Virus record (IMG/VR): IMGVR_UViG_3300031957_000140
Span: 1 to 20,063 of that record
Direction: 5' to 3' (one strand)
DNA from: a virus
Length of the DNA stretch: 20,063 nucleotides
This document shows, one piece after another, positions 262-17,505 of the stretch (position 1 is the first letter of the stretch; the number at the start of each line of letters is the position of its first letter). Position numbers and translations under genes: made by a program. Under the pieces are notes generated by a model. That model did no database searches, was not told where the DNA came from, and saw only the letters and a list, made by a program, of their open reading frames with translations.

Positions 262-578
262 ACTTCGATAATAAAATTCCAATTGCAGTTATTATTACCG
301 TGGTCCTTCAGGCTGCTGGTATTATCTGGTGGGTTAGCCAACAGGCTCATACAGTTAAGAGTCTAAAAGAAGATGTGGGTGGCCTGTCGTCTAAGATGGC
401 GATTGAGCAGAACGTAAATCTTCGTCGTGATGTAGCCGAGCATCAGCGTAAAATTGAAAATCTTATGGAAGAAGTTCGCGCTAATAATATGGTGGGTGAT
501 CGTCTAGCAGAAGTTTTACGTCGCGTATCTGTTATCGAAACAGAAATGAAATACCTTCGTGATGAACGAGGACGTTAA
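258..578 (+). CDS. Small membrane-anchored coiled-coil protein; holin or spanin-like candidate
   Basis: This 106-residue protein has one hydrophobic segment at about residues 7-27 (ending IIWWVS), followed by a charged, heptad-like helical region to the C-terminus (for example RKIENLMEEVRANN). That layout, a short N-terminal membrane anchor with a coiled-coil tail, is shared by several phage lysis proteins (class III-type holins, inner-membrane spanins) and by structural membrane proteins. Sequence alone does not choose between them, and no endolysin lies beside it. The start overlaps the upstream stop (ATGA) and the stop overlaps the next start (TAATG), so it is translated within a tight chain. 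A similarly built protein is encoded at 19355-19588. Function is not assigned. Confidence 0.75.
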   Translation: MNFDNKIPIAVIITVVLQAAGIIWWVSQQAHTVKSLKEDVGGLSSKMAIEQNVNLRRDVAEHQRKIENLMEEVRANNMVGDRLAEVLRRVSVIETEMKYLRDERGR

Positions 579-817
579 TGGCTCTTAAAAAATCACAGCA
601 GAGTCTGAAGGATTGGACTAAACAAAAATGGCGTACTAAGTCTGGCAAGAAATCGTCAAAGACTGGTGAGCGTTATTTACCTGAGAAAGCTATCAAAGCC
701 CTTAGTCCAGCAGAGTATGCAGCTACGAGTCGTGCTAAACGCAAAGGCACTAAGGCTGGTAAGCAGTTCGTAAAGCAACCTAAGCGAATTGCAGCAAAGA
801 CTAGAAAGTATAGATAA
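578..817 (+). CDS. Small highly basic protein, conserved type in marine viruses
   Basis: This 79-residue protein is dominated by lysine and arginine, with the core WRTKSGKKSSKTGERYLPEK followed by AIKALSPAEYAATSRAKRKG and a C-terminal patch ending KRIAAKTRKYR. I recall near-identical short proteins in marine phages and algal viruses, where they are annotated only as hypothetical. No enzyme motif is visible. The charge suggests DNA or RNA binding, possibly in the virion, but that is inference. It starts inside the previous stop (TAATG) and is followed after 12 bases by a gene with its own AAGGA ribosome binding site. Confidence 0.75.
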   Translation: MALKKSQQSLKDWTKQKWRTKSGKKSSKTGERYLPEKAIKALSPAEYAATSRAKRKGTKAGKQFVKQPKRIAAKTRKYR

Positions 818-829
818 AGGAAAATTAAT

Positions 830-1753
830 ATGGCCCTGCAATTCGCTATAGCAATCCCGATGGCAATGAATGTTGCTAGAGTGATTAGTCAACAAGGTAT
901 AAAAGCAGCGATCAAACGATATGGTCCTGAGACTGCCAAGATGGTCAATAAAAATATGAATGCCCTTCGTAAAAAATTTCCAGATATTCTTGGTCCTCAG
1001 AAAAAAACTAGAATGGACCCATCCAGATCTAAAATGGTCAAAGAAAAATATATGGATAGTAAAGGTAAATTTTACTCTGATGAGGCTGCAAAAAAATTAA
1101 AAGATCAAGCGGCAACAAACAGAAGAGCTATCGGGGCAGGGGCTGCTGTAGTTGGTGGAGGTGCTGTTCTTCTTACAGGTAATGAAGATAAAGATAGTAG
1201 CATCGTGCAATCAGCAGCGGCAAAGGGTGCTCCTAAAAAACCTGCTGGATTAACTCCTAGTCAACTGAAAACTAAAATGGAAAAAAGACGCCAAGATATT
1301 AAAGAATCTAAATCAGATAAGGGGTCCAGAGCTTCCCTAAGACGTTTTGAGGCTAAAACAGAGCTGGCTCGACAGAAAGAATTAGATGCTGTTGGCCCTG
1401 GCCCTGACATGAAAAAACGATCTATGCCAAAGAGAAAAGAACCAAGTAGTCCTACAAGAAATATTAGAACTCGTCCAGAACCTAAAGGTCCAAGAGATCA
1501 AAATTTAAGACCTCTTACTGCTGAAAAAGAAAAGCCACCTAGAGTTCCTAATACTAGCTCTCGTAAAAAATCTGAGTTTGGTTTAGACACTCTTGCAGAT
1601 CGTGATAAGATGAAAAGATTTATGAAAGATCGTTTTAATATCACCGTGACCTATGATGACGACGAAGATCCTGGTGATACGGCAAGCAGAGCCAAAGGCG
1701 GTTTGTTTACCCGTCGTGGTGCGCTTTACAATAAACCAGCGAGGAAAAAATAA
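830..1753 (+). CDS. Hypothetical basic protein with C-terminal GGLFTRRG tag
   Basis: This 307-residue protein is not recognised as a known family. The N-terminal 20 residues are hydrophobic (MALQFAIAIPMAMN), and a second glycine/alanine-rich hydrophobic stretch lies near residues 100-116 (AIGAGAAVVGGGAVLLTG), so one or two membrane contacts are possible. The rest is lysine-, arginine- and proline-rich and probably disordered, with an acidic patch (YDDDEDPGD) before the C-terminus. Residues 289-300 read KGGLFTRRGALY, a peptide echoed at the ends of the next two proteins. The start is supported by AAGGA about 10 bases upstream. The stop overlaps the next start (TAATG). An internal virion or membrane-interacting protein is possible but unproven. 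Confidence 0.75.
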   Translation: MALQFAIAIPMAMNVARVISQQGIKAAIKRYGPETAKMVNKNMNALRKKFPDILGPQKKTRMDPSRSKMVKEKYMDSKGKFYSDEAAKKLKDQAATNRRAIGAGAAVVGGGAVLLTGNEDKDSSIVQSAAAKGAPKKPAGLTPSQLKTKMEKRRQDIKESKSDKGSRASLRRFEAKTELARQKELDAVGPGPDMKKRSMPKRKEPSSPTRNIRTRPEPKGPRDQNLRPLTAEKEKPPRVPNTSSRKKSEFGLDTLADRDKMKRFMKDRFNITVTYDDDEDPGDTASRAKGGLFTRRGALYNKPARKK

Positions 1754-1923
1754 TGAGCGTCAACAAAATTAAAAAGGTTGTGGGTCAATTAAAAAAAGCT
1801 TCTGCTCTTCACGGTAAGCAAGCTGGTATTATCATGAAACATGCAGACTCTATGGCTAAGATGAAGAACGGTGGATTTACTCGTAAGGGTCCGTTGAAGT
1901 CTAGTAAAACTGCAAAGTATTAA
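1753..1923 (+). CDS. Very small basic protein with C-terminal GGFTRKG tag
   Basis: This 56-residue frame starts at ATG 1753-1755, overlapping the upstream stop, and ends at TAA 1921-1923. It begins MSVNKIKKVVGQ and has a helical, lysine-rich body with histidines (KHADSMAKMK), then NGGFTRKGPL and a basic end. It fills the space between two supported genes with no other coding alternative, and its C-terminal motif matches its two neighbours, which strongly supports it as real. Function is unknown. Small size and charge fit a minor virion or nucleic-acid-associated protein; this is inference. Confidence 0.75.
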   Translation: MSVNKIKKVVGQLKKASALHGKQAGIIMKHADSMAKMKNGGFTRKGPLKSSKTAKY

Positions 1924-1924
1924 T

Positions 1925-2266
1925 ATGACAGAAAAAGTTGGTGTTAGAGTTCCAAAACTTAAAACTAAGTATGGTCGTCCTGTATATAAAACAAAATCAG
2001 GTAGGCTTGTATCTGAAAAATCTATTACTTTAAAAGATAATAATAAATTTATAAATATTCCAAGTATACATAACGGTGTTCAATATAGTGAAGATAAAAT
2101 ATTTGATATGTATAAAAAAGGAAAAATAAAAGCAACTAGCTCTCATAAAGATATAAAATCCGCAGAGGAGGCTGCTCAAAAAAGAAGCGATAAAGCCTTT
2201 GAAGGTATAGACCTTAATAAGTATAAAGCTGGTGGGTTTGTTACGAGACGAGGACCAATTAGGTGA
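1925..2266 (+). CDS. Small protein with PSIHNG/TSxH-type domain and C-terminal GGFVTRRG tag
   Basis: This 113-residue protein has a recognisable core at about residues 18-90: a GRPVYKTKSGRLVSEKSIT strand region, INIPSIHNG at 43-51, YSEDKIFDMYKKGKI, then TSSH at 71-74 and a helix EEAAQKRSD. I recall similar short modules, standing alone or within larger virion proteins of marine podoviruses, built as strand, PS/T-hydrophobic-x-G, helix and helix. They lack a firm function. The last residues, AGGFVTRRGPIR, repeat the tag on the two upstream proteins. No strong ribosome binding site precedes the ATG, so it probably depends on translation of the previous gene, one base upstream. Its TGA overlaps the GTG start of the terminase small subunit. 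Confidence 0.75.
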   Translation: MTEKVGVRVPKLKTKYGRPVYKTKSGRLVSEKSITLKDNNKFINIPSIHNGVQYSEDKIFDMYKKGKIKATSSHKDIKSAEEAAQKRSDKAFEGIDLNKYKAGGFVTRRGPIR

Positions 2267-2634
2267 CAGAGCAACAGGAAAAGTTTTTGAATGCCTTGTT
2301 TGGTGAGGCGCAGGGTAACTTTAGGGAAGCCATGAATATTGCTGGCTATGCCTCTACAGAATATCCTGCCCGACTAATCCGTAGTCTAAAGTCAGAGATT
2401 ATGGAACGGGCTGAATATATGTTGGCGGCTAATGCTCCTAAAGCTGTGCTGTCCATGTCAGGTATCTTAGATGATCCTAGTGCTCTAGGCAACAAAGATA
2501 GACTAGCAGCGGCCAAAGAGATTCTTGATCGCGCTGGTATTGTGAAGACTGAAAAAGTAGAACATAAAACAAATGGGGCGGCTATCGTATTTTTACCGCC
2601 GCTAGAGGAAGAGGATGGCACATCCGAAGATTAA
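2263..2634 (+). CDS. terS: Terminase small subunit
   Basis: The 123-residue product would recognise phage DNA and hand it to the large subunit for packaging. The N-terminal half (TEQQEKFLNALFGEAQGN, then MNIAGYASTEYPARLIRSL) reads as a helix-turn-helix of the kind found in phage TerS proteins. The section DRLAAAKEILDRAGIVKTEKV is a common TerS feature ahead of an acidic tail (LEEEDGTSED). I chose the GTG at 2263 because it overlaps the upstream TGA (GTGA) and gives the full N-terminal helix; the first in-frame ATG would cut into it. The gene overlaps the large subunit gene by 20 bases, the usual TerS-TerL coupling. The call rests on position and motifs. Confidence 0.8.
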   Translation: MTEQQEKFLNALFGEAQGNFREAMNIAGYASTEYPARLIRSLKSEIMERAEYMLAANAPKAVLSMSGILDDPSALGNKDRLAAAKEILDRAGIVKTEKVEHKTNGAAIVFLPPLEEEDGTSED

Positions 2635-4438
2635 TCATCTAAGATCTGAAAAGTACAGAGCTAGAGGTAAGTTACCTTTTGGTTTTGACAGAGAAGTAGA
2701 TGAAGACGGAGTAGGTTGGCATGTTCCCGATCCAAAGGCGTTAGAACTTTTGGGTGAGGCTATTGAGCATGTTAGATCAGGGCGTTCAGTTAGATCTGTT
2801 GCAGCTTGGCTGGAAGCAGAAACGAACCGTAAACTATCTGGAACTAGACTACACAAACTTGCCTGGACTAAGGAAGAGCTTGATGACAGACGCAAGAAAC
2901 GTCGTAAGAAACTTACTCCTGAACAACGCAAGCTTGAAGATCTTAAAAATACTGAGAAGCAAACTCGGATTAAAGCAGAGCAAGCTAAACGCCGACTAGA
3001 TAAAGCTAAATCTAAAAAAGAACAGTCCATCGTAGAGGGTCTTGATTTTGCAGATGAGCCTATTGAAGATACTAGAGAAGTTGCATTCCGCCCTAATCCT
3101 GGTCCCCAGACAGACTTTTTGTCGGCTAATGAGCGGGAGGTATTTTACGGCGGGGCTAGAGGAGGGGGTAAGACTTACAGTCTTCTTATTGCTCCTCTAC
3201 GTTTTGTTGACAAGCCTACGTCTCGTGCATTACTAATTCGTAGGTCAATGCCTGAATTGCGTGATGTTATCTTTCAAACGCAACAGATTTATCCAAAGGT
3301 GGTCCCTGGTGCAAAGTTCAAAACTCAGGAGAATACTTGGCACTTCCCATCCGGTGCTCGTATTGAGTTCGGATATTGCGAAAATTTACAAGACGTTTTG
3401 CGTTATCAAGGTCAATCGTATTCTTGGATCGGCGTAGACGAATTACCACAGTACGGTTCTCCTGATGTGTGGCACTTCCTAAGATCCTCTTTACGGTCAG
3501 CGGATACTAGCATACCGCTTCACATGAGGGCTACAGGAAACCCAGGTAACATTGGATCTCGTTGGGTAAAAGAATTATTTATTGAGCCAGCAAAACCTAA
3601 TACACGGTTTGCAGAAAAAGTAGAATATGAATTAGAGGGTAAGACACTTTCTACTGAGATTACCAGAAAGTTTATTCCTGCCTCAGTTTGGGATAATCCT
3701 TATCTAACTCAAGACGGCAGCTACATTGCTATGTTGGCATCGCTGCCAGAAGTTAAACGTAAGCAGTTTCTTTATGGAGACTGGGATGTTGTTGAAGAAG
3801 GCGCGTTCCCTGACTTTAACAGAGCAACTCATGTAGTAGAGCCTTTTGAGGTTCCTCATGGTTGGACTAGGATCAGGGCTGCTGACTTTGGGTTCTCTTC
3901 TCACTCTGCTATTTTGTGGGGTGCTATAGATTACGATAATAACATTTGGATTTATAGAGAGCTTTATGTCAACCGACTAACGGCAGATCAACTAGGTCGC
4001 ATGATTAGAGAAGTTGAAGAGGGCGACGGACGAATCCATGACGCAGTGTTGGATAGTAGTTGCTGGGCTAGACGAGGGGACAGAGGACCATCCATTGCAG
4101 AAACTCTAAATGCAGAGGGTTGTAGATTTAGACCGTCTGATAGATCACCAGGATCTCGCGTCAGTGGTAAGATTGAGATTCACAAAAGACTAATGGTTGA
4201 TGAAGATACTGACGAACCGGGGATTAGATTTTTTGAAACGTGTCCTAATGTAATTAGACAGTTAGCATCTATCCCACTAGATAAAAGAAACCCAGAAGAT
4301 GTCGATACTCATGCGGAAGATCACGCTTATGATGCACTGAGGTATATGGTTTCTTCTAGGCCAACTAACTTACGAACTGCGTATGAAAACACACCCAAAA
4401 CAAATTGGCGTCCCTCTGACAACCGATTTGGATATTAA
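2615..4438 (+). CDS. terL: Terminase large subunit with extra N-terminal DNA-binding-like domain
   Basis: This 607-residue protein is the packaging motor: an ATPase that drives DNA into the head and a nuclease that cuts it. Walker A is GGARGGGKT at 179-187, Walker B is WIGVDEL with D275/E276, and the coupling motif is ATGNPG at 306-311. The RNase H-like nuclease has candidate metal-binding aspartates D424 (AADFGF), D480 (AVLDSS) and D573 (HAYDALRY). Unusually, about 150 residues precede the ATPase. Residues 17-85 (RGKLPFGFDREVDEDG, then VPDPKALELL and SVRSVAAWL) look like the helical recombinase domain that follows the catalytic part of serine recombinases. A long charged, probably helical linker (88-138) comes next. 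The ATG lies inside the small subunit gene, as is typical. Confidence 0.95.
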   Translation: MAHPKINHLRSEKYRARGKLPFGFDREVDEDGVGWHVPDPKALELLGEAIEHVRSGRSVRSVAAWLEAETNRKLSGTRLHKLAWTKEELDDRRKKRRKKLTPEQRKLEDLKNTEKQTRIKAEQAKRRLDKAKSKKEQSIVEGLDFADEPIEDTREVAFRPNPGPQTDFLSANEREVFYGGARGGGKTYSLLIAPLRFVDKPTSRALLIRRSMPELRDVIFQTQQIYPKVVPGAKFKTQENTWHFPSGARIEFGYCENLQDVLRYQGQSYSWIGVDELPQYGSPDVWHFLRSSLRSADTSIPLHMRATGNPGNIGSRWVKELFIEPAKPNTRFAEKVEYELEGKTLSTEITRKFIPASVWDNPYLTQDGSYIAMLASLPEVKRKQFLYGDWDVVEEGAFPDFNRATHVVEPFEVPHGWTRIRAADFGFSSHSAILWGAIDYDNNIWIYRELYVNRLTADQLGRMIREVEEGDGRIHDAVLDSSCWARRGDRGPSIAETLNAEGCRFRPSDRSPGSRVSGKIEIHKRLMVDEDTDEPGIRFFETCPNVIRQLASIPLDKRNPEDVDTHAEDHAYDALRYMVSSRPTNLRTAYENTPKTNWRPSDNRFGY

Positions 4439-4449
4439 CAGGAGTTACT

Positions 4450-6594
4450 ATGTCCGATACCTACGAAAATGATACTATTAATGTTCTTGACGACGGTGAT
4501 GAAGATAGAGGTTCGTATAGTAACATTGTGAGTTACGTTGAGGATAGATTTGAAAGAGCAAAGGATGCAAGGTATCATGATGAATCAAGATGGCTACAAT
4601 CGTATAGAAACTATCGGGGTATCTATGGCCCGGACGTTCAGTTTACTGAAACGGAAAAGTCGCGTGTGTTTATTAAGGTTACGAAAACGAAAGTGTTGGC
4701 GGCGTATGGTCAGCTAATTGATGTACTGTTTAGTCAGAACAAATTTCCGATTAGTGTAGATCCCACTACACTTCCTGAAGGGGTAGTTGAATCTGCCAAT
4801 GTAGATGTTGCTGCTCAACAAGCTGAAGAACAATTTGCTAATCTATATGGCTTTCCAGGTGATGGTAAAGATTTACAACCCGGAGATACAGCACAAACAC
4901 TACAAGAAAAGCTTGGGCCATTAGAAGATAAACTAAAAGACATTGAAGGTTTGGAAGAAGGTCCAGGTCTTACTCCTACTTCGCTTACGTTTGAACCAGC
5001 CCAAGTTGCTGCTAAAAAGATGGAAAAGAAGATTAAGGATCAGCTAGAAGAATCTGCTGCTACCCGACATCTACGACATAGTTGTTTTGAATGTGTGACG
5101 TTTGGCACTGGGATCATGAAAGGTCCGTTTGCTTTTGATAAAGAATATTCTAATTGGGATGATGACGGTGAATATGATCCAATTATGAAAACAGTACCAC
5201 AGGTAGAACATACATCAATTTGGAACTTCTATCCTGACCCTGATGCTTACAGTATGTACGATTGTGACTATGTTATAGAGCGTCATCGTATGACTAGATC
5301 ACAGGTAAGATATCTAAAAAAGCGTCCCTACTTTAGATCTAGTTCAATTGAAAAAGCAATTAAGTATGGGCCAGACTATGTTCGTGAGTGGTGGGAAAAC
5401 GATCTTGACGATAATCAAACCGCTGAAGGAAACGCAGCTTATTCTGGCACTGGTATTGAAAGATTTGAAGTTTTAGAGTTTTGGGGTACTGTTGATGCTC
5501 AGATCGCTCGTGATAATAACTTGGAGATTCCTGATGATTACAAAGATGAAGATGAAGTTCAAATCAATTGTTGGGTATGTAACGGCGAAGTCCTGCGCCT
5601 TGTTATCAACCCTTTCACGCCTAAGCGTATCCCTTATTTCGCAACTCCGTATGAAGTTAACCCATACTCTTTCTTCGGCGTGGGACTCGCTGAGAACATG
5701 GATGATACGCAAACTCTCATGAATGGTTTCATGCGATTAGCAGTTGACAACGCTGTTCTCTCTGGGAACCTGTTAATCGAAGTAGATGAATCTAACCTGA
5801 CTCCTGGTCAGGACTTAACTGTTTATCCTGGTAAAGTTTTCCGCAGACAAGGCGGTGCGCCAGGACAAGCAATCTTTGGTACAAAGTTTCCTAATGTGTC
5901 CGGTGAGAATATGATGCTCTTTGATAAGGCGCGTGTTCTTGCTGATGAGTCCTCTGGTCTACCGTCGTACTCTTATGGACAAACAGGTGTTCAAGGCACT
6001 GGTCGAACTGCATCTGGTATCTCTATGCTGATGGGTGCTGCTAGTGGTTCTATTCGCACTGTAATTAAAAATATTGATGACTATTTGTTACGTCCTCTAG
6101 GCGAAGCTATGTTTGCATTTAATATGCAGTTTGACTTTGACCCAGAGATTAAAGGTGACCTAGAAGTAAAAGCTCGTGGCACTGAAAGCTTCATGCGTAA
6201 TGAGGTTAGATCACAAAGATTAATTAGTTTCTTACAGATTGTAAGCAATCCTACACTAGCACCGTTTGCAAAATTTCCATATATCATGCGTGAGATTGCA
6301 CAGACTATGGACTTAGATGCAGACAAAATTACAAATAACCCAGAAGAAGCAATGCGTCAAGCACTTCTTTTACAACAAATGCAAAAAGAAATACAAGAAC
6401 AACAACCTAATGCAACTTCTGTTGGACAAGATCCGATGGGTACTGGAGGTGGTACAATCGGCACAGGACAAGCCCCAGTTCCAGGTGAACAAGGCGCACC
6501 AACAGGCGGTGGCCCTCAACCACAACAACAGCAACAACCTCAACAGAGTTTACCTCCTGAAATTGTTCAAGCATTACAACAAGTAGGTGGATAA
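4450..6594 (+). CDS. Portal (head-tail connector) protein
   Basis: This 714-residue protein would form the ring through which DNA enters and leaves the head. Evidence is its position right after TerL, its size (close to podovirus portals of the P22 class) and portal-like features. These are an N-terminal helical region with a YHDESRWLQSYRNYRG motif, aromatic-rich WNFYPDPDAYSMYDCDYVIE around residue 260, FEVLEFWGTVDA near 338, and the helical stretch DDTQTLMNGFMRLAVDNAV. A low-complexity acidic insertion lies near residues 110-190. The last 50 residues are glycine-, proline- and glutamine-rich, with a CAA/CAG-coded poly-Q stretch around 6518-6546. AGGAG about 6 bases upstream of the ATG supports the start. 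The stop overlaps the next gene (TAATG). Confidence 0.9.
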   Translation: MSDTYENDTINVLDDGDEDRGSYSNIVSYVEDRFERAKDARYHDESRWLQSYRNYRGIYGPDVQFTETEKSRVFIKVTKTKVLAAYGQLIDVLFSQNKFPISVDPTTLPEGVVESANVDVAAQQAEEQFANLYGFPGDGKDLQPGDTAQTLQEKLGPLEDKLKDIEGLEEGPGLTPTSLTFEPAQVAAKKMEKKIKDQLEESAATRHLRHSCFECVTFGTGIMKGPFAFDKEYSNWDDDGEYDPIMKTVPQVEHTSIWNFYPDPDAYSMYDCDYVIERHRMTRSQVRYLKKRPYFRSSSIEKAIKYGPDYVREWWENDLDDNQTAEGNAAYSGTGIERFEVLEFWGTVDAQIARDNNLEIPDDYKDEDEVQINCWVCNGEVLRLVINPFTPKRIPYFATPYEVNPYSFFGVGLAENMDDTQTLMNGFMRLAVDNAVLSGNLLIEVDESNLTPGQDLTVYPGKVFRRQGGAPGQAIFGTKFPNVSGENMMLFDKARVLADESSGLPSYSYGQTGVQGTGRTASGISMLMGAASGSIRTVIKNIDDYLLRPLGEAMFAFNMQFDFDPEIKGDLEVKARGTESFMRNEVRSQRLISFLQIVSNPTLAPFAKFPYIMREIAQTMDLDADKITNNPEEAMRQALLLQQMQKEIQEQQPNATSVGQDPMGTGGGTIGTGQAPVPGEQGAPTGGGPQPQQQQQPQQSLPPEIVQALQQVGG

Positions 6595-6817: not shown

Positions 6818-8266
6818 ATGGCAGAGATGACTGAAGAGCAAATGGAGAGGCTTCTCAAAAGTGATGCAGATCGTACCAAAGGTTTCACTCAAGAAGAGAT
6901 GGACGAGATGCAACAGGAGCTTGACAGACAAAATTTAGAAGAGAAGCAACGTCAAGACGAGGAGATGAAAGAAGAGTTTTCTCCTGGCTTAGAAGAAGAT
7001 AGAACTGCACCTCTTGAAGAAGAGCCAGAGAGAAAAGTTGAGCCTTCTCAGATTGCTTCTGCTGATACTACTATTAAAGAGTTTATGGAAACTTTGTTTA
7101 CAGAGTCACCAGACGCTGAAAGACTTGATGATGACGACGATGAGCCAGCCCCTGTTGAAGCTGAAAAAGTTGTAACTGCAAAAGCGGGAGGTTCAATTGA
7201 AAAAGAAGCTGACTTTGTTAAAGACGACGATGAAGAACCTGCTGATCCTCCTCCAGGTGCAACACCAGAGGAAGTGGCCGACGATATCCCAGCGTACCTG
7301 TCTACCGGAGAGTATGTGTTACCTGCCAATGTTGTAAGGTATATTGGCCTACAACAAATCGTAGCTATGCATAAAGGTGCTTTATCTGAACTGCAACAAA
7401 TGGAAGACCTCGACATCATCGAAAACGTAGATGAAAATGGTATGGTTGAGGAAGACGATGATGAGATGGATTATCTAAAAGAACCTAAAGGTGTCGTCAA
7501 GACTACTCTTGTTGTTGCCAAGCCACACCCTAGCGGTATGATGGCTATGCCTTTTCAAGAAGGAGGCACTCCTGATCCAGATTTTGATATGGACCCTGGC
7601 GGCACACCAACCGATCCAGGACAAGATGATACTTTAGGTGAAGAAGATGAAGACACACCAACCAATACTGGATCGCCAGGGGCGGAACCTGCTCCTGGTA
7701 GTGATACCTATCGAGAAGCAGAAAAACAACTTGAGCAAGTTATGGAGGACAGAGGGTTTAAGGAAAGAGTGGGAGATTTTTTATACGATTTAGCATATAA
7801 CATTCCTACCCCTACCCCCTCTTTAGATATTACACCTGCATATAGAAATAAACAAATTCAGCAAGCAATGAGAGATGCAAAAGCCAACAATCTGAATTTA
7901 ACCCGCGAGCAAATTGAAGAACAGATTGATAGACTTAACTTAGGTCTGCAAATGAGTCCAGAAGATGTAGCTAAAGCTAATCCAGCTACTGGAAAACTTG
8001 GTGCGCTAGGTCAAGCAGCTATGAGAGGCTTAGTAGAAAAAGACGTTACGCTGTCTCCTAATTTTGATATGGAAATACAAGATCAGCTAGAGCCGGATCG
8101 TGGAGGCGGGGAAGATATTGAACCTATCAAACCCTTAGAGCTTGCGGATGAAAAAGATACTGATGAAGGCCCGTTCCCTGGATTTAAATTATTTCCTGGT
8201 ATCGGCTATAGAAAAGTAAATGAAGATGTTAAGACCGTCAAACGTGGTGGCTTAATGGGTTACTAA
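6818..8266 (+). CDS. Long acidic, largely disordered phage protein with an 'AYLSTGEYVLPANVVRYIG' module
   Basis: This 482-residue protein is rich in Asp, Glu and Pro with long acidic runs (for example RLDDDDDEPAP) and appears mostly disordered. One conserved-looking module lies at about residues 150-195: DDIPAYLSTGEYVLPANVV followed by RYIGLQQIVAMHKGAL and an acidic helix. I recall this module in many marine phage proteins, always without a known function. A second helical region lies around 300-410 (REQIEEQIDRLNLGLQM). The C-terminus ends KRGGLMGY, a loose echo of the GG tags upstream. AAGGG upstream supports the ATG. Sitting between portal and scaffold, it may be a head-assembly or internal protein; this is inference. 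Confidence 0.8.
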   Translation: MAEMTEEQMERLLKSDADRTKGFTQEEMDEMQQELDRQNLEEKQRQDEEMKEEFSPGLEEDRTAPLEEEPERKVEPSQIASADTTIKEFMETLFTESPDAERLDDDDDEPAPVEAEKVVTAKAGGSIEKEADFVKDDDEEPADPPPGATPEEVADDIPAYLSTGEYVLPANVVRYIGLQQIVAMHKGALSELQQMEDLDIIENVDENGMVEEDDDEMDYLKEPKGVVKTTLVVAKPHPSGMMAMPFQEGGTPDPDFDMDPGGTPTDPGQDDTLGEEDEDTPTNTGSPGAEPAPGSDTYREAEKQLEQVMEDRGFKERVGDFLYDLAYNIPTPTPSLDITPAYRNKQIQQAMRDAKANNLNLTREQIEEQIDRLNLGLQMSPEDVAKANPATGKLGALGQAAMRGLVEKDVTLSPNFDMEIQDQLEPDRGGGEDIEPIKPLELADEKDTDEGPFPGFKLFPGIGYRKVNEDVKTVKRGGLMGY

Positions 8267-8289
8267 TTTTTCGAGGGCTACTTTTTACC

Positions 8290-8306
8290 CCTAACATGGT
8301 GTTAGG
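8290..8306 (+). promoter_or_regulatory. Perfect intergenic hairpin between acidic protein and scaffold genes
   Basis: CCTAACA and TGTTAGG form a perfect 7-base-pair stem around a TGG loop. There is no T tract after it, so it is not a typical intrinsic terminator. It is flanked by two copies of GGCTACT (about 8274-8280 and 8305-8311). It could protect or process the mRNA end or tune scaffold expression; only the structure itself is seen. Confidence 0.55.
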
Positions 8307-8336
8307 CTACTAAAGACCCCCAATAAGGAGAAGACC

Positions 8337-9170
8337 ATGACTATGGCTGAAGTACAAGAAGATCGCGTTGCTACTATTAAGTATAAGAGAGATAGAGTTT
8401 CTGAAGATGAGCAAGAGATTGCAGAGTTGGAAGCAGAGCGAAACAAAGATGTAGAAGCTCGACGCGAAGAAGAAGCAGAGCAAGAACTAGGTGCAGAGGA
8501 ACAGACATACAAAAAAAGATATGGTGATCTACGTCGCCACACGCAAAAAATCCAAGATGAAAATAAACGCCAGCTACAAAAGCTTCAAGATCAAGTAGAG
8601 GCTTTAACTAAGAAACAAGTTAAGCTACCTAAATCTGATGAAGAGCTTGAAAAGTGGACTGAGCAATATCCTGATGTTGCAAAGATTGTAGAAACAATCG
8701 CCTCTAAAAAAGCTATGGAGGCTAGTAACGACGTAGAAGAAAAGCTTCGCCGAGTCGAAGAATTAGAACTTAGGATTGAGCGAGAGAAAGCTGAGACTGA
8801 ATTATCTAGGCTTCATCCAGATTACGATGACTTACGACAAGATAAAGACTTTCACGACTGGGTTAGTGAGCAACCTAAATGGATTCAAAGTGCTTTGTAT
8901 GAAAACGACACTGACTTCTTAGGTGCAGCTAAAGCTATTGACTTGTATAAATCAGAAACTGGTAAGAAAGCAAAGAACAAAGACACGGGCGCAGCTAAGT
9001 CTGTAAGGACCAGTAAGCGTTCAGAAGAATTAACAGAGGGTAAAAACTCTTGGTCAGAGTCCAGAGTAAGACAATTATCTGGTGCTGACTTTGAGAGATT
9101 CCAAGAAGATATCGAAAAAGCTATCCGTAGTGGTAACTTTGATTATGATATTTCTGGAGGTGCTCGTTAA
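8337..9170 (+). CDS. Putative capsid scaffolding protein
   Basis: This 277-residue protein is very rich in Glu, Lys, Arg and Gln, with long predicted coiled coils (roughly residues 15-95 and 130-165). These flank a short conserved-looking region (HPDYDDLRQDKDFHDWVSEQ, then PKWIQSALYEND) and a basic C-terminal part ending GNFDYDISGGAR. Its place directly before the major capsid gene, coiled-coil composition and C-terminal charged segment are the classic marks of a scaffold that drives prohead assembly and then leaves. AAGGAG at 8325-8330, 6 bases before the ATG, supports the start; an in-frame ATG two codons on (8343) is possible. The gene ends just ahead of a strong promoter. Confidence 0.8.
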   Translation: MTMAEVQEDRVATIKYKRDRVSEDEQEIAELEAERNKDVEARREEEAEQELGAEEQTYKKRYGDLRRHTQKIQDENKRQLQKLQDQVEALTKKQVKLPKSDEELEKWTEQYPDVAKIVETIASKKAMEASNDVEEKLRRVEELELRIEREKAETELSRLHPDYDDLRQDKDFHDWVSEQPKWIQSALYENDTDFLGAAKAIDLYKSETGKKAKNKDTGAAKSVRTSKRSEELTEGKNSWSESRVRQLSGADFERFQEDIEKAIRSGNFDYDISGGAR

Positions 9171-11071: not shown

Positions 11072-11890
11072 ATGGGAATTACACTTAAATGTTCTATTGA
11101 TGATGAAACATTAAAAAAACATTATGAAATAAATAAAGATCAAAAAGTTCCCTGGATCTATAAACTAAAAAATAGTGCTAGAAAAAGAAAAGACAAAGTT
11201 TTAATTTGTGCTGGCGGTCCTTCTATCAGGGAGTTCCATCCTCTTATCCAAAATTGGAAAGGGGATATTTTCGCATCTAAGACTGTAGAGTATTTAGAGA
11301 ACATAGGCGTTACACCACATTACTGTATTCATGTTGATGCAGGTGATAACGAACCTAACAGAGTTTGGAAAAATAAAAAAACAAATTACTTGTTCTCAAC
11401 TCAAATTAAACCTGAAGTATTTGATGTAGCTAAAGGCTGCAAAGTTTTTAAGTTTAATACTATTTCTTCAAATGAGTGGATGCCCCCTAATTTAATTGCA
11501 GGTGGTTCTAATTGCACCGCACAAGCTTTATTTTTATGTGCATGGTTAGGCTACAAAGAAATACACATTACAGGATTTGATTGTGGTTTTAAAGAAGATC
11601 CTGACGGTACTATGATTTTAAATGTAAATCGTAACAACATCAATAAAACAGACAACCCTAAAGTTATTGTTAATGATCACGAGCGGGGTCTTAAATATCA
11701 TACTGATTACGAATATATGGGTATGGCAGAAGAAGCTGCTAAGATTATTCAGATTTTATCCCGTGATAAAAAAATTAAATTTAATGCATATGGTAACTCT
11801 GTATTTACATCGACGGTAGATAAAGATATTAAAAAAGGATCTTACTCATTAGGTCCAAATGTACCACTTAAATGGTTGAAAGCGGCGTAA
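11072..11890 (+). CDS. DUF115 / MptE-like Rossmann-type protein (cargo gene)
   Basis: This 272-residue protein shows marks of the MAF_flag10/DUF115 family (6-hydroxymethylpterin pyrophosphokinase MptE-like). These are a Rossmann-type start KVLICAGGPSI at 42-52, HVDAGD at 87-92, and GGSNCTAQALFLCAWLGYKE at 144-163 leading to ITGFDCGF. Known members are archaeal pterin diphosphokinases and bacterial flagellin-glycosylation (Maf) proteins that handle nucleotide sugars; the substrate here is unknown. The gene is AT-rich (AAA, AAT, ATT, TTA codons) compared with the capsid genes before it, and sits between a terminator and the tail genes, so it looks like an inserted accessory gene. GGAG upstream supports the start. 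Virion or host-surface glycosylation or pterin metabolism are both conceivable. Confidence 0.8.
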   Translation: MGITLKCSIDDETLKKHYEINKDQKVPWIYKLKNSARKRKDKVLICAGGPSIREFHPLIQNWKGDIFASKTVEYLENIGVTPHYCIHVDAGDNEPNRVWKNKKTNYLFSTQIKPEVFDVAKGCKVFKFNTISSNEWMPPNLIAGGSNCTAQALFLCAWLGYKEIHITGFDCGFKEDPDGTMILNVNRNNINKTDNPKVIVNDHERGLKYHTDYEYMGMAEEAAKIIQILSRDKKIKFNAYGNSVFTSTVDKDIKKGSYSLGPNVPLKWLKAA

Positions 11891-14742: not shown

Positions 14743-17505
14743 ATGGCAGGTTATAGTAGACAATCAGCAGCTCAGATAGTAAACGGTGAGATTGTTTCTG
14801 CACCACCGTTGAACGCGGAGTTTAACCAAGTTCTTGCAGCTTTTAATGTAAGCACTGGTCATAGACATGATGGAACCGCAAACGAAGGTCCACTTATTGC
14901 ACTGATTGCTGATCCTAATAGACATAACGAAGTTCTTATTAATACCTCTCTCAATCAAATTGATTTTAAGATTAATGTTAGCTCTGCTGCTGTTACACAA
15001 TTTTCTTTAGTTGATGGTGCTATTCTTCCTACTACAGACGATGATATTAGCTTAGGTTCTACTACAGCAGAGTTTAAAGACCTATTCTTAGATGGAACTG
15101 CTAACATTGACTCTCTCGTTGCAGATACTGCCGATATTAACGCAGGTACAATTGATGGTGTTACAATCGGTGGCAACTCGGCAGGTGCAGGTACATTCAC
15201 TGTAGTAAATGCTTCATCCGCAGACATCGACTCAGGTACTATTGATAATGCAGTAATTGGTGGGACAACACCTGCTGCTGGTACATTTACCGCACTAGGT
15301 GCAACTAATGTTACTGTCACTGGTAGCGCATCTAGCATTGGTTCTGTAGCATTCACTTCAACAGGGGCTACTGTAACGGGTACGCTAGATGTAACTGGCG
15401 CTTTTTCTGCTTCTAATGTAACAGTAACAGGCAGCGCATCTAGTATTGGTTCGGTTGCTTTCACATCTACATCAGCGACTGTTACTGGTAACTTAACAGT
15501 ATCTGGATCTGTAACAGCCTCTACAATTTCCGCTGTTAATGTTTCTGTGACTGGCAGCGCATCATCAATCGGTGCTGTAGCATTTACGACTACCTCTGCT
15601 ACCATTACTGGGAATCTAGTAGTCTCTGGATCTGTCACAGCCTCGACTATCTCAGCAGTTAATGTAACTGTTACTGGTAGCGCATCTAGCATTGGTGCGG
15701 TTGCCTTTACATCTACCTCGGCTACTGTTACAGGTAATCTGTCTGTCTCTGGTTCTATTACAGCCTCTACCTTATCTATAGCAGGAAACATTAGTGCATC
15801 TACTATTAGTGTAAGTAACATTACTGCTACAGGCAGCGCATCATCAATTGGTGCTGCTACCTTTACCTCTACAGCAGTTACAGTCACTAAACTCATCTCT
15901 GGTAACGTAGATATCACCGGCGGATCAATCACTGGCGTCACGAATATCTTTGATCCTGGTTCTGCTATGTCCTACACATTTAGTGGGGCAACCGCTGATG
16001 CAGACCCAGGTAATGGTAATATTAGACTTAACAATGCTTCATCAACAGCAGCAACAACAATCTTTATTGATAATGTAGACGCTCTCAGCAGTGCTGATAT
16101 GACTGCGTTTATTTCTTTGCTGTCAGGCGGTAACAATCCTTCTGGTGTCCTCGGTACTGTTACTCTTCGTAAAGCCACCTTCCCAGAAGTATTTGCTCAG
16201 TATAGTGTGACAGCAGTTACAAATGCTTCTGGTTATCAAAAGTTAACTGTTGCTAATAAGGGGGCAAGTGGTGCTGCACCATTTACAAGCGGCGACTCTC
16301 TGTTAGTAGACATCGCTTTAACTGGTGATAAGGGTGATGCGGGTGATGGTGATGTATCTGGTCCAGGTACTGCAACAGATAATGCTGTAGCACGATTTAA
16401 TGGCACTGGAGGTTCAAACTTAAATAACTCTGGTGTTATCATTGACGACTCCAATAATGTCACTGGTGTTAATGCACTTACTGTAACCACTAATATTACA
16501 GCATCTAACATTACTATTGTAGGCAGTGCTTCTACAATTGGATCGGTAGCTTTTACTAGCACATCTGCTACAGTAACTGGTAATCTTACTGTATCAGGTT
16601 CAATTACAGCGAGTAGTCTAACTGTTAATGGTAACATTAGTGCATCCAGCTTATCTGTAAGTAACGTCACTGTTGTCGGCAGTGCATCGACTATTGGCGC
16701 TGTAGCTTTTACATCCACTGCTGCTACAGTTACAGGTAACCTCACCGTCACTGGCTCCGTAACTGCGAGCAGTCTTACTGTCAATGGCAATATTAGTGCC
16801 AGCACAATCACCGTTGCTAATATTACAGCCACCGGCTCTGCCTCAACTATTGGCGCTGTAACAATTACCTCCACGAATGTGGGCATTGGTACGAGCAGCC
16901 CAGATGTAGAATTTCATGTTCAAACTAGCACCGATACAAATATAGCGATTGTCTCTGGTAGTGCAGGAACGTCTGCAATCGACTTTGGCGACGGAGATGA
17001 TCGCAACGCCGGTCTCATACAATATATAAACGCCGACGACGCAATGACTTTTCGGACAAGTGGTTCCGGCGAAGATATGCGCATCGACAGCAGTGGCAAC
17101 GTGGGCATTAATACGTCAACTCCAGATAGTGCGTTACATATCTATAAGCAAACTAACGACCGGTCAGCTAGATTCCAGCGTATTTCCACGCAATACGTTG
17201 ACATCATTCAAACGGCTAGCAGAAACGAAATCGCATCGAATGGTAAGGATTTTTTTATATCAACATCAGGCGCCAACCCAATATTGTTCCGTACCGCAGG
17301 TACTGAGCGTCTTCGTATCGACAGCGCAGGCGGTGTCGGCATTAACACCACCTCTATTACGTCAGGCACTGCTTTAGAAGTGACCGGCAATATGCGTATT
17401 ACAACTACGGGTAACGGCTTAATCTTCCCAGACGGTTCTAAACAAGAGACAGCCGCTTCGGGGGGTACAGGTATCGCAATTGCAATGGCAATAATTTTTG
17501 GATAA
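14743..17505 (+). CDS. Repeat-built tail fibre protein
   Basis: This 920-residue protein starts with a virion-attachment-like region (MAGYSRQSAAQIVNGEIVSA and TGHRHDGTANEGP) and ISLGSTTAEFKDLFLDG. Its shaft has eight repeats beginning N(V/I)(T/S)xxGSAS(S/T)IG: five from residue 189 and three from residue 589. They are separated by a region containing a short collagen-like GDKGDAGDGD and GPGTATDNAVARFNGTGG. The C-terminal part has NVGIGTSSP and NVGINTSTP turns and ends near LIFPDGSKQETAA. Such repeats and turns are known from trimeric beta-structured fibres. No intramolecular chaperone domain (S74-type) follows; the protein stops about 13 residues later. It probably recognises the host. AGGA about 10 bases upstream supports the start. 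Confidence 0.85.
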   Translation: MAGYSRQSAAQIVNGEIVSAPPLNAEFNQVLAAFNVSTGHRHDGTANEGPLIALIADPNRHNEVLINTSLNQIDFKINVSSAAVTQFSLVDGAILPTTDDDISLGSTTAEFKDLFLDGTANIDSLVADTADINAGTIDGVTIGGNSAGAGTFTVVNASSADIDSGTIDNAVIGGTTPAAGTFTALGATNVTVTGSASSIGSVAFTSTGATVTGTLDVTGAFSASNVTVTGSASSIGSVAFTSTSATVTGNLTVSGSVTASTISAVNVSVTGSASSIGAVAFTTTSATITGNLVVSGSVTASTISAVNVTVTGSASSIGAVAFTSTSATVTGNLSVSGSITASTLSIAGNISASTISVSNITATGSASSIGAATFTSTAVTVTKLISGNVDITGGSITGVTNIFDPGSAMSYTFSGATADADPGNGNIRLNNASSTAATTIFIDNVDALSSADMTAFISLLSGGNNPSGVLGTVTLRKATFPEVFAQYSVTAVTNASGYQKLTVANKGASGAAPFTSGDSLLVDIALTGDKGDAGDGDVSGPGTATDNAVARFNGTGGSNLNNSGVIIDDSNNVTGVNALTVTTNITASNITIVGSASTIGSVAFTSTSATVTGNLTVSGSITASSLTVNGNISASSLSVSNVTVVGSASTIGAVAFTSTAATVTGNLTVTGSVTASSLTVNGNISASTITVANITATGSASTIGAVTITSTNVGIGTSSPDVEFHVQTSTDTNIAIVSGSAGTSAIDFGDGDDRNAGLIQYINADDAMTFRTSGSGEDMRIDSSGNVGINTSTPDSALHIYKQTNDRSARFQRISTQYVDIIQTASRNEIASNGKDFFISTSGANPILFRTAGTERLRIDSAGGVGINTTSITSGTALEVTGNMRITTTGNGLIFPDGSKQETAASGGTGIAIAMAIIFG
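15307..15927 (+). repeat. Tail fibre repeat array A (five units)
   Basis: Units begin at 15307, 15415, 15538, 15661 and 15817, with lengths 108, 123, 123 and 156 bases and a last degenerate unit. Each encodes N(V/I)(T/S)xTGSASSIG, then a strand of the type VAFTSTSATVTGNL. Unit lengths are multiples of three. Protein identity is high while synonymous positions differ widely between units. The 156-base unit has an added SIAGNISASTIS-like piece. Confidence 0.85.
16507..16890 (+). repeat. Tail fibre repeat array B (three units)
   Basis: Units begin at 16507, 16663 and 16819. The first two are both 156 bases and carry the longer form, with a TVNGNISAS segment; the third runs into the NVGIGTSSP turn. 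The array uses GSASTIG rather than GSASSIG, so it forms its own subfamily distinct from array A. Confidence 0.85.

Follow-up and report, generated by a model that had tools for sequence, protein, structure and literature searches.

Three neighbouring late genes of a podovirus encode proteins of 307, 56 and 113 residues that carry nearly the same short peptide close to their C-termini, raising the question of what such a peptide does on proteins that otherwise differ. We addressed it in the DNA of a 20,063-base virus record, read 5' to 3' and hereafter called the window, and in its relatives.

A shared peptide near the end of three late proteins

The late module of the window runs in a single direction and encodes a spanin-like small membrane protein, a conserved 79-aa protein (phrog_14910; 578..817, + strand), the three tagged proteins, the terminase small subunit (TerS; 2263..2634, +; phrog_2538, 2.8e-6) and the terminase large subunit (TerL; 2615..4438, +), the gene that defines the lineage. 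An SU10-like portal, an acidic protein, a 277-aa protein in scaffold position and the major head protein, whose HMO-2011 homologue is annotated as a P22-type coat, lie beyond TerL. The 79-aa gene and TerS form the left and right edges of a variable slot, which houses the tagged genes. Further along are a 272-aa protein between the head and tail genes (11072-11890), with no PHROG match and DUF115-like by eye, and a 920-aa late protein with many near-identical TVTGSASSIGSVAFTSTSATVTGNLTVSGS repeats (14743-17505), presumably a fibre.

TerL is closest to that of Pelagibacter phage HTVC033P (57%), then to those of HMO-2011 and the Roseobacter CRP phages; the relative G001 is 97% identical to the window in the major head protein and 85% in TerL. 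HMO-2011-type phages are marked by a DNA polymerase with a partial DnaJ domain containing two CXXCXGXG motifs (PMC9038755). This polymerase, with both motifs, is present in G001, G002, G006, HMO-2011, CRP-1 and HTVC033P; the window itself has no polymerase. Judged from these sequences, the window is a member of one lineage within the HMO-2011-type marine podoviruses. HMO-2011-type podoviruses are abundant and among the commonest marine podovirus groups. A search of bacterial genomes for relatives of TerL found none.

The first tagged gene (830..1753, +) encodes a 307-aa basic protein, in which an exchangeable body (830-1693) is followed by the tag GGLFTRRG (1697..1720, +), ten more residues (ALYNKPARKK) and the stop. 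The second, an open reading frame for a 56-aa basic protein (1753..1923, +), has the tag GGFTRKG (1870..1890, +) followed by PLKSSKTAKY, again ten residues. The third (1925..2266, +) encodes a 113-aa protein with a predicted alpha/beta body and a disordered tagged end, where GGFVTRRG (2231..2254, +) is followed by PIR only. An earlier note on this DNA had described the peptide as C-terminal on these three neighbours; it is present where placed, but near-terminal, with 10, 10 and 3 residues after it. The same note held that the three bodies are unrelated and that the tags differ in coding DNA; indeed, the bodies fall into separate similarity clusters, and comparison of the codons confirmed the difference. 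Recent paralogy is ruled out, as searches with the 56- and 113-aa proteins matched only their own families and the tags, with no likeness beyond the tag. A homologue of the 56-aa protein in another lineage locus (L013, 79%) is tagged; that of HTVC033P has 42 aa and is untagged, indicating that body and tag are separable.

The motif was then sought with three degenerate patterns (GGFTKRG; GG-hydrophobic-FTRRG) in 2.9 million viral contigs, with duplicate sites removed. In contigs of the lineage, an in-frame stop followed all 46 distinct matches within 15 residues; the same held for 11 of 45 matches in other contigs (Fisher p = 9e-16), and those 11 were chance stops in frames without an open reading frame. 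Among open reading frames of at least 25 aa outside the lineage, no match fell within 15 residues of the end, and the matches there were internal. We conclude from this contrast that the tag is specific to the lineage and to C-termini, so that the C-terminal enrichment expected earlier is borne out. A random 25-residue C-terminus of the window's composition would contain the motif with a probability of 1.25e-5 per gene, which excludes three adjacent matches by chance and, together with the contig scans, rules out a chance match as the origin of the tag. Isolated phages searched with the tag peptide yielded no relatives, and a literature search did not find the tag sequence.

Two weaker echoes reported earlier did not hold up. 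The KRGGLMGY end of the acidic protein is a separate, family-specific GG[LI]M ending and not the tag, and the GGMV of a Met/Gln-rich protein is internal, that protein having no homologue among the loci compared. The acidic protein (6818-8266), encoded between portal and scaffold, ends in GG[LI]M in close relatives and in SGIMG...GVGY in others (endings compared in the window, L006, L009, L023, L132, L138 and L142). Similar GGL[ML] ends occur on unrelated late proteins (G001 7999-8502, CRP-1 gp33, HTVC115P gp40 and gp72); perhaps these endings constitute a second C-terminal docking motif. A general GG-hydrophobic code at C-termini is weak at best, with 49 of 662 genes against 3.8% expected, a mild excess due in part to the tags themselves.

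Exchange of bodies at the tag boundary

We fetched 80 loci of the TerL lineage, and counted the slot in the 54, window included, that have at least 400 nt ahead of TerS, accepting the variant AGFTRRG of three loci (L016, L019 and L021). At least one tagged gene precedes TerS in 53 of the 54; in the exception, L060, the slot is empty and the 79-aa gene is directly followed by TerS. The tag is missing from the outgroup phages HMO-2011 and HTVC033P; since these two have similar heads, and since L060 has an empty slot, it is not essential to the head type. Lineage genomes encode one to three tagged proteins in the slot, and four loci (L036-L038 and L061) have a tagged gene outside it. Second tagged genes were located at L061:76-210 and L036:718-825 (44 or 35 aa), at least roughly 1 kb upstream of the main slot, showing that tagged genes are not limited to the site beside TerS.

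The aligned tails read x-GG-(L/M)-F-(V)-T-[KRQS]-[RKG]-G-[GPAV], roughly Gly-Gly-Phe-Thr-Lys-Arg-Gly, with 3-13 residues from tag to C-terminus, and are often preceded by KYGM[KR]x and a second KGG unit. The 58 distinct tagged open reading frames collected fall into twelve similarity clusters of bodies; some singletons are fragments, so we count about ten unrelated kinds of body.

Beside these, a 52-aa EF-hand-like protein (KLDANKDGKIS; L027:103-261 and L127:3461-3619) has a tag-like KRKYGMRDGGFT at its N-terminus, not its C-terminus. Small basic proteins composed of repeated K-x-GG-[AMP]-x-K units (L031:1570-1695, L044:4013-4150, HMO-2011 at L082:112-264, and HTVC115P gp73) recur in the tag neighbourhood across HMO-2011-type phages.

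Alignment of close relatives located where bodies change. Over 1-813 and 1694-4499, L001 matches the window at 97% identity, and the DNA for the whole body of the 307-aa protein between these stretches (814-1693) is unrelated. Similarity restarts at base 1694, one codon ahead of GG, which places the break at the tag. In L004, the tagged end (1694-1749) is retained and the genes for the 56- and 113-aa proteins are then cleanly absent. We also compared long tagged genes in 62 pairs, not independent of one another, whose downstream DNA is at least 80% identical; in 44 of these pairs similarity stopped no more than 70 nt upstream of GG. Read from these alignments, the bodies are cassettes that can be exchanged, and what stays constant is the tag. 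A constant tag on freely swapped, unrelated bodies suggests a loading label, the simplest reading being one partner and changeable cargo. The targeting or docking role proposed earlier would fit the anatomy of the cassette.

The partner could belong to the packaging machinery, the tag docking proteins to TerS, TerL or portal during DNA packaging with no entry into the head. In nearly all lineage genomes the tagged genes stand immediately before TerS, often overlapping it, and a slot at this site would reflect such a partnership. However, HMO-2011, HTVC033P and L060 have homologous TerS, TerL and portal proteins but no tagged genes, wholesale exchange of bodies is unusual among motor accessories, and the four loci with a tagged gene outside the slot speak against a tie to that position. 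We consider this reading unlikely.

Bodies of the tagged proteins and selection on the peptide

All tagged proteins are basic (pI at least 9.0, median 10.2). A hydrophobic segment close to the N-terminus is present in about half of the long ones and absent from the rest; this argues against a holin-like role. Searches of the tagged proteins for domains (Pfam, PHROGs, PADLOC, NCBIfam) returned nothing credible and no recognisable effector domain; one protein has a weak HC2 histone-like Pfam match. The 307- and 113-aa proteins found no relatives by sequence among isolated phages, and the 113-aa protein none in the PDB, by sequence or by fold. A structure model of the latter, built from two sequences only, is weak overall (pLDDT 65), with moderate confidence in an alpha/beta body (mean pLDDT 73-85 at residues 11-70) and a disordered tagged end (below 50 at residues 101-113). 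Foldseek matched it, among viral structures, to parts of 736-950-aa proteins with E-values of 1.9e-6 and 8.2e-6 but low TM-scores, and more weakly to large polyvalent, transglycosylase SLT and tape measure proteins. None of the sequence searches with the 113-aa protein backed a relation to large phage proteins, and with the low TM-scores this makes the likeness a lead only: the modelled body is weakly similar to portions of large polyvalent or transglycosylase proteins of phages, a type thought to be packaged and injected (PMC5512222).

The high pI would also suit a basic, Gly-rich nucleic-acid-binding tail of RGG or histone type, condensing DNA or binding RNA and selected for its charge, as would the repeated Lys/Gly-Gly units of several tails and the HC2 match. 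Yet charge would demand far less constancy than is seen at GG, the F/L/M position, T and the final G, and the tag keeps a fixed place close to the stop. We regard such a tail as a little less likely again than docking to the motor.

The conserved end might instead act as DNA, the peptide having no role: a recombination anchor, a 3' end hitch-hiking beside TerS, or a ribosome-binding site. The breaks of the body swaps at the tag agree with this, and the neighbouring tags of L034 and L041 share 87-89% of their DNA over 44-45 nt, so some tags may descend from one copy. However, in genomes with two or three tags, codons are identical at 36 of 88 matched residues, where independent choice predicts 33.7; the tags of one genome thus use independent codons, which points to selection of the peptide and not to copying of DNA, and rules out a DNA-level copy or gene conversion for most pairs. 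Likewise, L053 and L054 both keep GGFTKRG with five of the seven codons changed, all synonymously, in nearly identical surroundings; the tails after the tag differ (GGMYKKGY and PCK). Of 58 tags, 49 end at least 20 nt ahead of the next start, a spacing too wide for a Shine-Dalgarno sequence, which rules out a ribosome-binding site, and tagged genes also occur away from TerS. A role as DNA is therefore distinctly improbable, and the earlier view that selection acts on the peptide is upheld. A protease site was also suggested earlier. As a processing or degradation signal read by a protease of host or phage, it would suit a short, near-terminal, flexible peptide, but is very improbable, as searches of eight relatives found no Peptidase_S78 or ClpP-type prohead protease (that for S77, the gp21 type, had no working control) and the stretch after the tag varies freely over 3-13 residues, unlike a C-degron.

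Taken together, the comparisons identify the tag, at the level of sequence, as a near-terminal peptide kept by selection, common to unrelated late proteins and preserved when their bodies are exchanged.

A candidate loading label and its known counterparts

We propose that proteins with interchangeable bodies are loaded as cargo, most probably into the head, by way of this C-terminal tag acting as a docking peptide, and give this reading, in which head loading is itself inferred, a probability of about 0.4. The tag would be a linear docking signal, short and placed at the C-terminus or close to it, that only one lineage of HMO-2011-type podoviruses possesses. Its carriers would be late and basic proteins, one to three in number, either mostly disordered or built of a single domain. 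The tag would bind one late-made phage partner, which may be the scaffold, the portal, the coat or a protein of the internal core, and through it the cargo would be built into the prohead; the cargo may then travel with the DNA into the next host, much as the capsid targeting sequence allows for T4 internal proteins. The tagged genes share the direction of TerS, TerL and portal and adjoin them. We counted in favour of head loading the basic character of the tagged proteins, like that of the T4 internal proteins (PMC9026906), and the Foldseek matches of the 113-aa protein to classes thought to be packaged and injected; the want of a recognisable effector domain and the weak model of the 113-aa protein were counted against it. 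Somewhat more doubtful is the complete system, in which a constant peptide would carry changing small proteins into the head and on to the next host, with cassettes swapped at the edge of the tag.

If the tag loads heads, any gene of these phages ending in it could be called virion cargo from its sequence alone, and the fast-changing bodies would be candidate anti-defence or take-over factors of an abundant marine virus group. Even without head loading, the locus clearly exemplifies a short peptide that persists on unrelated proteins while their surroundings are exchanged.

Three known systems invite comparison. Phage polyvalent or ejection proteins share the late-gene neighbourhood (PMC5512222), and the 113-aa protein weakly resembles one of their modules; they are, however, multidomain giants, whereas the marine tagged proteins are single and small, with only the tag in common. 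Encapsulin cargo is loaded by a short C-terminal peptide, common to unrelated proteins, into a shell of the HK97 fold (PMC8346489), a precedent showing that a C-terminal peptide can load a shell of the same fold. The marine tag is likewise short, near-terminal and carried by unrelated proteins; the consensus differs, and encapsulins are cellular compartments, not phages. In T4, a shared short peptide brings IPI, IPII and IPIII, which are small, basic and variable between relatives, into the head, and their bodies are thought to change in an arms race with the host (PMC9026906). The marine tag is similar in being a short peptide on small basic proteins with divergent bodies at a variable locus. 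By contrast, the T4 sequence is N-terminal, about 10 residues long and cut off by gp21, whereas the marine tag lies 3-13 residues from the C-terminus, in a lineage whose head is P22-like, where head loading is only inferred and where the searches above found no prohead protease. We claim membership in neither the T4 capsid targeting nor the encapsulin family; if the proposal is true, the tag would correspond to the T4 capsid targeting sequence, but at the C-terminus and apparently with no protease involved.
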